Below are positions 18,355-25,697 of a stretch of 64,000 bases of DNA, in pieces. The stretch is from Erysipelotrichaceae bacterium (GTDB lineage: Bacteria > Bacillota_I > Bacilli_A > Erysipelotrichales > Erysipelotrichaceae). The position numbers and the translations under genes are program-made. A model generated the notes under the pieces. It had not been told where the DNA came from. It made no database searches and worked only from the letters and a program-made list of their open reading frames with translations. Where the stretch lies: contig JAQXQU010000101.1 in assembly GCA_029101345.1 (NCBI GenBank), positions 1-64,000 on the forward strand, in the 5' to 3' direction. Within the stretch, counting starts at the first letter, position 1, and every line of letters begins with the position of its first letter.

Positions 18355-18360
18355 TTATTA

Positions 18361-18575
18361 TGCGTTGACAAAGAGGAAGTACTTTAGTCCTTGGAAGATA
18401 GAGATGTCCTGGTCGGTGGAAAGGACACAAGGCTATAGGAAAATGTCGCTTTGGAGTATATCTGGTGAAACCAAGTAGCTGGATACGTTTCCTGCGTTAA
18501 AGGTTTGAGGCAGCCGATGGCTGTAAATTAAGGTGGTAACACGTACAAAGACGTCCTTATGGCGTCTTTTTTATT
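18361..18575 (+). promoter_or_regulatory. T-box leader upstream of valS
   Basis: AAGGTGGTAACACG T-box core followed by terminator hairpin AAGACGTCC-TTAT-GGCGTCTTTTTT, then valS. Confidence 0.9.
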
Positions 18576-18590
18576 TAGGAGGGACTATTT

Positions 18591-21167
18591 ATGCTTGATC
18601 AGAAATATGAAGCAGCCAAAGTAGAAGATGGCAAATATCAGATGTGGCTTGATCGCAAGTATTTTGAGTGTGGGGACATGGCAAAGAAACCTTACTGCAT
18701 TGTCATTCCACCACCAAATGTCACAGGCAAACTCCATCTTGGGCATGCGATGGATAACACAATCCAGGATCTTCTTTCACGTTACAATCGTTTGAAAGGC
18801 TTTGATGTCTTATGGGTACCAGGCATGGACCATGCCGGCATTGCAACTCAGGCCAAGGTTGATGAAAGACTGAAGAAACAAGGTATTTCCCGTTATGACC
18901 TAGGAAGAGAGAAATTTCTGGATGTTGCTTGGGATTGGAAAAAGGAATATTCAGGCTTTATTCGTAACCAGTGGGCAAAGCTTGGCATTTCGGTTGATTA
19001 TCGCAAAGAAAGATTCACTCTTGATGAAGGCCTGTCAAGAGCTGTTCGTGAGGTTTTCGTCAAATACTATAAAGAAGGGCTGATTTATCAAGGACAGCGT
19101 GTAATCAACTGGGACCCAGTTGCCAAGACAGCTTTATCCAACATTGAAGTCATTCATAAGGATGTTGAAGGAAAGATGTACTATTTCCGTTATCATGTTG
19201 TTGATAGCGAGGAGACTTTTGATGTCGCTACAACAAGACCGGAAACCATGTTTGGTGATGTCTGCGTTGTTGTTCACCCTAAGGATGAAAAACTTAATCA
19301 TCTGATTGGCAAGAAGTGCATCAATCCTGCAAATGGTGATGTCTTACCTATTATTGGTGATGAATATATTGAAATGGGCTTTGGTACCGGTGCTATGAAA
19401 TGTACACCTGCTCATGACCCTAATGACTATCAGATTGCCTTAAGACATAATCTGAAAATGCCAATCTGCATGAATGAGGATGGCACTATGAATGAACTCT
19501 GTGGTGAATACAATGGACTTGATCGCTATGAGTGCCGTGAAAAGGTTGTGAAGGCAATTGAAGATGCCGGTCAGCTTGTGAAGATCGAAAAGATCAATCA
19601 CTCAGTAGGCCATTCAGAAAGAACTGGTGTTATGGTTGAACCATATCTCTCCAAGCAGTGGTTTGTTAAGATGAAGCCATTGGCTCAGGATGTTCTGGAT
19701 GCCCAGAAGAATGAAGACACCAAAATCAGCTTCTATCCAAAGAGATTTGAAAAGACCTTTAACCAATGGCTGGAAAATATCGAAGACTGGTGCATTTCCC
19801 GTCAGCTCTGGTGGGGTCATCGAATTCCAGTCTGGTATCACAATGAAACAGGGGAAATCTATTGTGAAGTAGATCCACCAGCAGATATTGAAAACTACCA
19901 TCAGGATGAAGATGTACTGGATACCTGGTTCTCATCAGCCTTGTGGCCATTCTCAACACTTGGCTGGCCAGAAGAAACCGAAGACTTCAAACGCTATTAC
20001 CCAACATCCTGCATGGTAACTGGTTATGATATCATTTTCTTCTGGGTCGCTAGAATGGCATTCTCAGCCCGTCATTTCACAAATAATGTTCCATTCCGTG
20101 ACTGCCTGATCCATGGCTTGATTCGTGATGAGAAGGGCAGAAAGATGTCAAAGTCTCTCGGCAATGGCATTGATCCAATCGATATCATCAACAAATACGG
20201 TTGCGATTCCTTAAGACTCTTCCTATCAACCAATTCAACACCAGGCCTTGATATGAACTTCTCAATGGAAAAGCTCGAAGCTGGTTGGAACTTCATCAAT
20301 AAGCTCTGGAATGCCTCAAGATTTGCCATGATGAATATCGATGAGGGCTACAGTTTCAAGGAACCTGTTGCCAAGACGGAAATAGATCATTGGATTCTTT
20401 CCAAGCTCAACAACATGATCAAGCAGGCAACAGTAAATCTTGATAAATATGAGTTCGCTATTGCCGGTAATGAAATTGAGAGCTTTGTCTGGAACGACTT
20501 CTGTTCCAGTTATATTGAATTTACAAAGCCAATCCTGATGGGTGATAACAAGGAAGCCAAGTATCAGACTCTTGATACACTGATTTATGTCTTAAGATCA
20601 ATTTTGATTGTTCTCCATCCATTCATCCCATTTGTCACTGAAGAAATCTACCAGGAACTCTTTGGCAAGGAAAAATCAATTGTCATTGAAAAATGGCCAG
20701 CAATCTTTGAAAAACTTGATGAAAAGAAGGCAACTGAAGTTGAAGTGCTGCTTGAAATCATCAAGATTACCCGTGAATTAAGATCAGAAAACAACCTAAA
20801 GCCTTCTAAGGAATTGAATATTGCCATTGAAGGCTATGACCTCAATGCCGACATGAAAGCGATTCTGAATCGCATGTGCAAGCTAAATGTTGTTGAGTCC
20901 ATTGATGGCGAAACCATTATTCGACCAATCACGGCAGGCAAGCTCAATTATCGCATGTCAGAAATTGTTGATAAAGCTGCTGAGCTGGCAAAGATTGAAA
21001 AGGAACTCGATCGCCTGGCTAGTGAAATCAAGCGTGGCGAGTCTATTCTTTCAAATCCGGGCTTCATTAGCAAAGCACCAGAAGCCAAGATCAATGCTGA
21101 AAAGGCAAAGCTTGACAAGAACAGGGCTTCATATGCGATGCTGTTAGAAAAAAAGAAGGAATTCTAA
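18591..21167 (+). CDS. valS: Valyl-tRNA synthetase
   Basis: PPPNVTGKLHLGHAM (HIGH), GRKMSKSLGNGIDP (KMSKS), C-terminal coiled coil. Confidence 0.96.
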   Translation: MLDQKYEAAKVEDGKYQMWLDRKYFECGDMAKKPYCIVIPPPNVTGKLHLGHAMDNTIQDLLSRYNRLKGFDVLWVPGMDHAGIATQAKVDERLKKQGISRYDLGREKFLDVAWDWKKEYSGFIRNQWAKLGISVDYRKERFTLDEGLSRAVREVFVKYYKEGLIYQGQRVINWDPVAKTALSNIEVIHKDVEGKMYYFRYHVVDSEETFDVATTRPETMFGDVCVVVHPKDEKLNHLIGKKCINPANGDVLPIIGDEYIEMGFGTGAMKCTPAHDPNDYQIALRHNLKMPICMNEDGTMNELCGEYNGLDRYECREKVVKAIEDAGQLVKIEKINHSVGHSERTGVMVEPYLSKQWFVKMKPLAQDVLDAQKNEDTKISFYPKRFEKTFNQWLENIEDWCISRQLWWGHRIPVWYHNETGEIYCEVDPPADIENYHQDEDVLDTWFSSALWPFSTLGWPEETEDFKRYYPTSCMVTGYDIIFFWVARMAFSARHFTNNVPFRDCLIHGLIRDEKGRKMSKSLGNGIDPIDIINKYGCDSLRLFLSTNSTPGLDMNFSMEKLEAGWNFINKLWNASRFAMMNIDEGYSFKEPVAKTEIDHWILSKLNNMIKQATVNLDKYEFAIAGNEIESFVWNDFCSSYIEFTKPILMGDNKEAKYQTLDTLIYVLRSILIVLHPFIPFVTEEIYQELFGKEKSIVIEKWPAIFEKLDEKKATEVEVLLEIIKITRELRSENNLKPSKELNIAIEGYDLNADMKAILNRMCKLNVVESIDGETIIRPITAGKLNYRMSEIVDKAAELAKIEKELDRLASEIKRGESILSNPGFISKAPEAKINAEKAKLDKNRASYAMLLEKKKEF

Positions 21168-24123: not shown

Positions 24124-25515
24124 TTAGACAATATGCAGTAAATTGATGAGCAATAGCCATGCTAAGCCATAATAGGTTACAACTGCCACCAGGTCGTTGA
24201 CTGTTGTAATCAATGGTCCTGAGGCAACAGCTGGATCTACCCCAAGTTTATGGAAGAACATAGGAATCAGGGTACCAGTAAGCGATGAAATGATCATTGA
24301 GCACATTAAGGCAATGCCAACACAGCCAGAAATCAGGAAAGCCTGATGAAGAGGGTTGCCTTTGAAAAGATGGATATATAGTCCGATAATAACAAAAGTC
24401 ACAAGTCCGAGCAGCATGCCATTGCATAAGCCGACTTTGACTTCCTTGCCAACAAGTTTCAGCTTTTCCTTGCCTTGCAGATTCTCATCCATCAGTACAC
24501 GGATTGTAACAGCCAGTGATTGGGTTCCGACATTGCCGGACATATCAAGAATCAGGGACTGGAAGCAGATGACAATCGGAAGTGTTGCGACAACAGCCTC
24601 AAAAATGCCAACGACACTCGATACAGCTATGCCCAATACCAGAAGGGCAATTAGCCATGGAAGACGCTTTTTCATGGATTCTCCTGTTGTTTCCTGCAGA
24701 TCTTCTTCAGCAGTCAAACCAGCCAGCTTGGCATAATCGTCACCCATTTCATCATCAACTGCTTCAATGATATCCTGGGATGTGATAACGCCAATGACAT
24801 TTAGATCTTCATTTAGAACTGGCAGGGAATCTTCGGCGTAGTCCTTGATTCTTTCAATTGATTCATTGATCTTTTCGTGATCATTTAGATAGGGATAGGA
24901 AGTCATGATGAGTTCATCGAGGTCAACGCCATCCCTTGCTCTAATCAGATCCTTTAAATCCATGGCTCCATAGAATTTGCCTTCGGCATCTTCTACATAG
25001 ATGGTTGAAATATTGTCATTGTCAGCTGCCTGATTGATCAGTTCACGCATTGCTTCCCTGACTGACAGACCTTTCTTGATCAGGATGAAGTTGGTAGTCA
25101 TATATGATCCGATTTCATCATCTTCATATGATTGGATCAGTTCAATATCTTCTACTGATTCCTCATCCATCAGATCAGTAATGGCTTCTGAAACTTCATC
25201 ATCCATTTCTTCCAGAACATCAACTGCATCATCAGAATCCATGAAAGACAGGACTTCTGCTGCTTGTTCGAGTTCGATTTCCAGGAAGTATTCATCAACA
25301 TTTTCAATATAGGAGAAGATTTCAGAAATCATCTCAGAACCAAGAATTGGATAGAGATGTTTTCTTTCTTCAGGTGTCAGATGCTCAAAAGCACCAGCTA
25401 TATCGTTCTCATGGTAATCAGAAAGCTTTTCCTTGATTTCTTCATTACTTAGGCCAGAACGGATGATACCGATGATTTCATCGATGAATTTGAATTCATT
25501 GTTTTCGTTTTCCAT
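24124..25515 (-). CDS. mgtE: Magnesium transporter MgtE
   Basis: N-terminal MgtE domain (ADVLEEMDDEVSEAITDLMDEESVEDIE), CBS pair, TM domain LILDMSGNVGTQSLAVTIR, DPAVASGPLITTVNDLVAVVTYYGLAW. Confidence 0.96.
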   Translation of the reverse strand: MENENNEFKFIDEIIGIIRSGLSNEEIKEKLSDYHENDIAGAFEHLTPEERKHLYPILGSEMISEIFSYIENVDEYFLEIELEQAAEVLSFMDSDDAVDVLEEMDDEVSEAITDLMDEESVEDIELIQSYEDDEIGSYMTTNFILIKKGLSVREAMRELINQAADNDNISTIYVEDAEGKFYGAMDLKDLIRARDGVDLDELIMTSYPYLNDHEKINESIERIKDYAEDSLPVLNEDLNVIGVITSQDIIEAVDDEMGDDYAKLAGLTAEEDLQETTGESMKKRLPWLIALLVLGIAVSSVVGIFEAVVATLPIVICFQSLILDMSGNVGTQSLAVTIRVLMDENLQGKEKLKLVGKEVKVGLCNGMLLGLVTFVIIGLYIHLFKGNPLHQAFLISGCVGIALMCSMIISSLTGTLIPMFFHKLGVDPAVASGPLITTVNDLVAVVTYYGLAWLLLINLLHIV

Positions 25516-25516
25516 A

Positions 25517-25582
25517 TTTGCCTCCTTTTTTAATTTAAGCAGGCAAAACTATCATCAAAGGACAAAGGAGCCCTTTGATAGT
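25517..25582 (-). promoter_or_regulatory. Candidate structured 5' UTR/attenuator of mgtE
   Basis: Minus strand: ACTATCAAAGG...CCTTTGATGATAGT hairpin, alternative CAAAGG-GCT-CCTTTG hairpin, and TTTGCCTGCTT...AAGGAGGCAAA pairing the mgtE SD with one mismatch. Confidence 0.5.
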
Positions 25583-25638
25583 GTCGTGTCTGCTTTAGAT
25601 GCTATGTATGTATCTGTACAACTATCCGGGTGTTCCAT
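25555..25638 (-). CDS. Putative 27-aa leader peptide upstream of mgtE (MEHPDSCTDTYIASKADTTLSKGSFVL)
   Basis: Minus-strand AAAAGGAGGACTTT-ATG (strong SD at good spacing) followed by 27 codons and TGA TGA TAG; a further in-frame ATG lies 21 nt upstream; 3' half lies within hairpin arms. Confidence 0.55.
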   Translation of the reverse strand: MEHPDSCTDTYIASKADTTLSKGSFVL

Positions 25639-25669
25639 AAAGTCCTCCTTTTCCATGTCTATTTTAGCA

Positions 25670-25697
25670 TAAGAAAAAAGCGTAGATACGCTTTTTC
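25670..25697 (-). terminator. Terminator after proS
   Basis: Minus strand AAAAAGCGTA-TC-TACGCTTTTTTC. Confidence 0.75.

Follow-up and report, generated by a model that had tools for sequence, protein, structure and literature searches.

The M-box (ykoK) Mg2+ riboswitch is the usual cis regulator of mgtE in Bacillota, and mgtE genes, as classic riboswitch targets, are assumed to be M-box-regulated in this phylum; control of Mg2+ transporters by leader peptides has been described in enterobacteria. The question raised here is what controls the mgtE gene in a stretch of 64,000 nucleotides from an Erysipelotrichaceae bacterium (hereafter, the window), upstream of which the original prediction had placed a small ORF that might replace the M-box. 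By analogy with the enterobacterial systems, we consider that this ORF probably serves as a cis-acting MgtL/MgtQ-like leader-peptide attenuator of mgtE, and assign this reading a rough probability of 0.66.

The leader ORF and the lack of an M-box at the window locus

The window mgtE is the only MgtE match in its genome, and no match to CorA was found in that genome. The elements of the locus are as follows.

24124 to 25515, minus strand: mgtE, encoding 463 aa with MgtE_N, a CBS pair, and the MgtE transmembrane domain (domain search)
25521 to 25528, minus strand: Shine-Dalgarno (SD) sequence of mgtE, AAAGGAGG
25555 to 25638, minus strand: leader ORF MEHPDSCTDTYIASKADTTLSKGSFVL, 27 codons plus TGA (sequence; leaders in relatives)
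25621 to 25638, minus strand: codons 1 to 6, M-E-H-P-D-S, an acidic core matching M[DE]x[C/P][DE][S/G] (comparison with relatives)
25644 to 25651, minus strand: SD sequence of the leader, AAAGGAGG, an 8/8 match
25654 to 25656, minus strand: in-frame upstream ATG (MEKEDFMEHPDS...), without an SD
25661 to 25669, minus strand: extended -10 promoter element TGCTAAAAT, ending 22 nt upstream of the leader ATG
about 25671 to 25696, minus strand: intrinsic terminator of proS, just upstream of the -10 element and separating the leader transcript (read from the sequence)

The predicted 27-codon ORF is present: it starts with the ATG at 25638, 5 nt after its SD, and runs into the in-frame stops TGA TGA TAG from 25557, the first of which ends at 25555. 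Its position after the proS terminator and a -10-like element was also borne out, and its placement ahead of mgtE held, although the distance from the leader stop to the mgtE ATG (25515) was measured as 39 nt and not 40 nt. An in-frame upstream ATG exists as described, but it is probably not used as the leader start, because it lacks an SD and sits about at the expected transcript start. The 8/8 match of the leader SD equals the score of mgtE's own SD. Across the 64-kb window, an SD match of at least 7 nt precedes no more than 13 ATGs, mostly the starts of long genes. Of 57 leaders, 10 are preceded by an extended -10-type element, compared with an expectation of 2.2. A short SD-led ORF lies directly upstream of a Mg2+ transporter gene.

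The earlier remark that no M-box was recognizable at mgtE also proved correct, as the RF00380 model matched neither the window nor the genome it comes from, while both positive controls, Bacillus subtilis and Lactococcus lactis, were detected. The window leader gave no Rfam match at the gathering score and, at E values up to 10, only sub-gathering matches; no Rfam element was matched in 20 relatives. Given the lack of matches in the window, its own genome, and these relatives, an M-box or another Rfam element at the leader was rejected. In the 61 relatives searched, the M-box turned up in 3 genomes, all of a single genus and the only one of the order found to have it; the gene downstream belongs to another MgtE subfamily. 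In these genomes (L170 to L172, genus g14), 180 to 220 nt separate the M-box from the gene of a divergent MgtE paralogue, which is 26% identical to the window protein. In the cases observed within this order, the M-box and the leader ORF thus go with different mgtE subfamilies. Both lie upstream of mgtE; the M-box is an aptamer RNA without a leader ORF.

Leaders upstream of related mgtE genes

For comparison, we gathered mgtE orthologues within the window's order and class and from named GTDB genomes, the latter mostly of Lachnospiraceae and other Clostridia, with Bulleidia extructa and Floccifex porci. Of about 150 mgtE relatives in Erysipelotrichales, Lachnospiraceae, and other Clostridia, roughly half have a leader ORF. 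These leaders are SD-led ORFs of 13 to 36 codons that precede orthologous mgtE in many genera; 48 of 80 named loci have one within 260 nt of mgtE, and at least 5 more have one further upstream. In the genus of the window itself, many mgtE genes lack a leader, which counts against the attenuator reading. On the MgtE tree, 30 gains or losses of the leader are required, a count in which the no-leader label is inflated by leaders more than 260 nt upstream and by contig ends.

The leaders start with sequences such as MDNCDSCGPSS (Floccifex), MDSCDSTGRSS, MDSCDGSYRRRG, MDNCDGNPRS, MDSPDGDYRS, MDADSNYRS, and MDGCEQRS (Bulleidia), and further Erysipelotrichales leaders with MEVDESN, MDEHPSRK, MEGHEQS, and MTNDDPAPD. 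The core consensus is M[DE]x[C/P][DE][S/G]. The start of the window leader, with E2 and D5 as its acidic residues along with P4 and S6, is closest to MDSPDG (L091/L096) and MDNCDS (L031); the xGRS part of the motif is absent from it. In an unbiased set of 53 nonredundant leaders, picked on SD, length, and position only, Asp or Glu occupies codon 2 in 42 and codon 5 in 37. The combination of an acidic residue at codon 2 with one at codon 4 or 5 was found in 38 of the 53; in two control sets, of 276 and 175 SD-led starts, it occurs in 2.2% and 2.3% (Fisher p below 1e-25, with related sequences treated as independent). Among the exceptions, MLNDDPAPD, MTNDDPAPD, and MSDDSRG become acidic one or two codons later. 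Of the acidic and proline-containing start that had been proposed, the acidic half is conserved among relatives and the proline is not; residue 4 is mostly Cys.

The original prediction had called for a comparison of mgtE upstream regions, and in relatives the SD, the start, the position, and the acidic start were all kept. That the ORF is a functionless chance occurrence is scarcely credible: the window peptide, as might be expected of a chance ORF, is short and departs from the motif of its relatives, but an 8/8 SD, its own promoter, and a position and acidic core matched in relatives argue against this. On this comparative sequence evidence, which is decisive, the window leader ORF is confirmed as real.

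Some candidates were discarded. The apparent leaders MDEDQMEKVSKGQAP...KGKGKNKGGFRF of L067 to L070 and L073 look like the C terminus of the upstream gene, which we take from its sequence to be probably ffh, and MEVELDN... in L120/L124 was rejected since it resembles the tail of a coding sequence that lies upstream. Separately, four loci of genus g20 (L061, L062, L064, and L065) have tandem mgtE genes, and leaders of the MTNDDPAPD type, which resemble MgtL more than any others do, precede the upstream copy.

Selection appears to act on both the peptide and the RNA. In the unbiased set, codons 2 and 5 differ from the commonest codon by a single base in 23 cases; 16 of these changes are synonymous (p 4e-7 for an expectation of 0.2), and almost all of the other 7 are Asp-to-Glu changes. 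Third-base entropy in a 34-member core family, which was chosen with the amino-acid pattern, is 0.93, compared with 0.69 and 0.63 for the first two bases (permutation p 0.03). The spacing from the ATG to CGAAG[T/G] is 18, 21, or 24 nt, every one a multiple of 3, and the median open length of frame 0 is 27 codons, compared with 16 and 3 for the other frames. Besides, in leaders of the Lachnospiraceae group, Arg is nearly always CGA and Ser nearly always AGT, and a segment late in the ORF, e.g., GCAGTTGTC, is a pairing partner of the start segment GACAGTTG. Since AGT and CGA are almost fixed and this pairing exists, the leader peptide and the leader RNA are both under constraint, and part of the conservation of the start codons (GACAGTTG) can be explained by RNA pairing.

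We also searched for the pattern ATGGACRGTTGYGAY...CGAAGT without regard to genes in 20 genomes with known leaders and 348 Lachnospiraceae genomes (367 different genomes or slightly fewer, as two or three overlap). Every match was upstream of mgtE, including five in previously unseen genomes, and a reversed control pattern had zero matches in the same genomes (about 367). The exact CGAAGT pattern occurs in just 7 of the 348 Lachnospiraceae genomes, so that this strict pattern informs on specificity, not frequency; a search across the window's class only, which is uninformative for Lachnospiraceae, gave no match.

Predicted folding and the proposed attenuator model

In 30 nonredundant leaders, an intrinsic terminator lies between the ORF and mgtE. 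We folded the RNA as far as the U tract by partition function, with the ribosome modelled as a footprint. The probability of the terminator stem was 0.79 in free RNA versus 0.35 with a footprint over the first codons. When the footprint was scanned along the RNA, many leaders switched at about codon 7; in L156, L157, L165, L112, L125, and L101, the terminator was near 0 with the ribosome over codons 1 to 6 and near 1 from codon 8. Shuffling of the start segment lowered the terminator value of free RNA to 0.47 (p 1.6e-5), and shuffling of the rest of the ORF raised the start-occupied value to 0.87 (p 2.6e-7). The terminator leaders are thus predicted to fold as a four-segment attenuator, with 1:2 and 3:4 pairing against 2:3. 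In L149, L168, and others, the segments are exemplified by AACGATGGA in the ORF, TCCATCGTT after the ORF, and ACGATGGATTTTTT as the terminator arm; the NPRS group has a different sequence with the same segment relation (ACGGTATAAC, GTTATACCGT, and CGACGGTTT). Overall, pairing of the ORF with the post-stop segment exceeds that of shuffled ORFs (combined p 3e-21, uncorrected for relatedness). All the statistics given here take related sequences as independent. In leaders without terminators, mgtE SD accessibility changed with the same sign when the ribosome was at the start (6 up, 0 down). As a separate observation, L036 and L037 have a terminator-like hairpin (GCCATGATC..GTGGCTTTTGTTTT) close to mgtE and no recognizable acidic leader ORF; this is possibly a different attenuator.

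Because the predicted outcome depends on a ribosome in the acidic start, the comparison favors MgtL-like logic, for which we propose the following course. A promoter between proS and mgtE would yield the leader RNA, with the 27-codon ORF as its first message, and initiating ribosomes would soon encounter two acidic codons, both among the first five. With ample Mg2+, ribosomes would read on and the RNA would adopt an OFF structure, either an intrinsic terminator, as in many relatives, or a hairpin over the mgtE SD, as in others including the window. When Mg2+ is scarce, ribosomes would pause or drop off in the acidic start and keep the start segment covered, and the later ORF segment so freed would pair with the 5' arm of the OFF hairpin, allowing mgtE to be expressed. 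Low Mg2+, by holding or ejecting ribosomes at the acidic start, may therefore turn mgtE on. We infer translation of the ORF, Mg2+ as the signal, the drop-off mechanism, and the exact alternative pairing in the window.

Alternatively, the conserved MDxCDxxxRS start may be an arrest peptide that binds the ribosome tunnel or slows the ribosome at CGA, giving a stall and not drop-off, in response to Mg2+ or another signal and with the same RNA outcome. Cys4 and Arg9-Ser10 are indeed conserved beyond the acidic residues, with the near-fixed CGA and AGT codons in the Lachnospiraceae group, and a ribosome anywhere on codons 1 to 7 gives antitermination in the folding. We regard this as unlikely, as Cys and Arg are missing in MTNDDPAP, MEVDES, MDEHPS, and the window leader while the acidic residues persist, and RNA pairing may be what preserves CGA and AGT. 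Purely RNA-based regulation, in which a metal-sensing, riboswitch-like leader carries an incidental ORF, is very unlikely. The mutual pairing of the start and late ORF segments, the nucleotide conservation there, and the place of mgtE among riboswitch targets would agree with it, but the strong SD and start, the third-base variation at codons 2 and 5, the indels in threes, the long open frame, and the lack of Rfam matches in the window and 20 relatives do not, and free RNA is mostly terminated already in 22 of the 30 leaders.

The attenuator reading is less readily seen in the window copy, in which folding and sequence point to the following elements.

25621 to 25626, minus strand: candidate segment 1, GATAGT (codons 5 and 6), complementary to ACTATC at 25582 to 25577
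25590 to 25596, minus strand: candidate anti-sequester AAAGCAG (codons 15 to 17; weak), complementary to CTGCTT at 25542 to 25537
25577 to 25582, minus strand: candidate segment 2, ACTATC, late in the ORF (codons 19 to 21)
25553 to 25580, minus strand: 11-bp hairpin covering the end of the ORF, its 3' arm containing the stop codon; ATAGTTTT follows (folding)
25517 to 25547, minus strand: hairpin TTTGCCTGCTT / AAGGAGGCAAA covering the mgtE SD (folding, sequence)

The GATAGT:ACTATC pairing is analogous to the GACAGTTG:CAGTTGTC pairing in relatives. The alternative pairings in this copy are of only 6 bp, the whole AAAGCAG/CTGCTT duplex has p 0.066, and the hairpin at 25580 to 25553 is weak and terminator-like with a poor U tract. 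At equilibrium, the accessibility of the mgtE SD was about 0.3 for nearly all ribosome positions and reached 0.5 to 0.6 only with a ribosome on the leader stop codon. Opening of the SD hairpin from the stop codon, as modelled, would fit coupling or the opposite sign of control, and kinetic folding or coupling could alter this equilibrium picture. Simple translational coupling at this locus, by which a ribosome at the leader stop opens the SD hairpin so that efficient leader translation raises mgtE, accords with that position dependence and the 39-nt stop-start distance. We nevertheless judge it distinctly unlikely, because most relatives fold with the opposite logic and an acidic start would make no sense in such coupling unless low Mg2+ were meant to reduce mgtE. 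Judged by sequence, membership of the window leader in the leader family of its relatives is well supported, and the switch is clear in the relatives only. Regarding the proposed exchange of the M-box for a leader peptide, the MgtL-like logic was thus partly supported, by attenuator folding in relatives, with no clear switch from equilibrium folding at the window copy.

Known leader peptides and scope

The closest known layout is that of MgtQ, upstream of mgtB in Salmonella, in which Asp2 and Glu5 are required and ribosome position selects between 1:2 plus 3:4 pairing (OFF, an SD or terminator hairpin) and 2:3 pairing (ON) (PMC8092293). The early acidic codons, the Mg2+ transporter target, and the ribosome-position choice are shared. 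However, MgtQ has 8 codons and lies in an operon intergenic region of a gammaproteobacterium, with a P-type ATPase as its target, whereas the Bacillota leaders, compared with it by layout only, have 13 to 36 codons, their own promoter, an MgtE channel as target, and often an intrinsic terminator. MgtL, the leader peptide of mgtA in E. coli and Salmonella, shares the acidic N-terminal start and a Mg2+ transporter target and uses EPDP (PMC11282234). The MTNDDPAP leaders of Erysipelotrichales resemble it most. MgtL needs Pro and acts on a Rho-dependent terminator, while the Bacillota leaders show no conservation of Pro and often keep Cys4 and Arg-Ser; an EPDP-type motif is absent from the window leader, and relatives have intrinsic terminators or SD hairpins. 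The Thioalkalivibrio mgtE motif, a strong riboswitch candidate (PMC11109978), is likewise upstream of mgtE but is a structured RNA found in Thioalkalivibrio only and not described as a uORF.

The open-licence literature searched yielded MgtL, MgtM/MgtP, MgtQ, mycobacterial M-box uORFs, and the Thioalkalivibrio candidate, and no description of a leader peptide for mgtE. Our best reading is that an MgtL/MgtQ-like attenuator is new for MgtE and for Bacillota within this literature; an earlier description elsewhere is possible. More tentatively, and at somewhat less than even odds, MDxCDxxGRS may be a specific ribosome-arresting or -destabilizing Mg2+ sensor that evolved independently of MgtL and MgtQ and, for one MgtE subfamily, takes the place of the M-box in Lachnospiraceae, other Clostridia, and Erysipelotrichales, with terminator and SD-sequester outputs. 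If true, widespread acidic leaders would place the MgtE channel, and major gut bacteria, within the range of nascent-chain Mg2+ sensing, provide dozens of natural variants of a ribosome-destabilizing start for experiments, and represent an evolutionary exchange of sensor between an RNA aptamer and a translating ribosome.

On the MgtE tree, the window protein was placed among Clostridia-type MgtE, apart from most MgtE of its own genus (weak support), for which horizontal transfer or a mis-binned contig is possible. In the same genus, L020 to L027 encode proteins of about 335 aa whose relation to MgtE is limited to its first 300 residues; a membrane-protein gene lies upstream of them. Elsewhere in the window, an ordinary T-box leader (RF00230, 101.9 bits) lies at 18356 to 18561 on the plus strand, ahead of an 858-aa ORF at 18591 that is presumably a valyl-tRNA synthetase gene.
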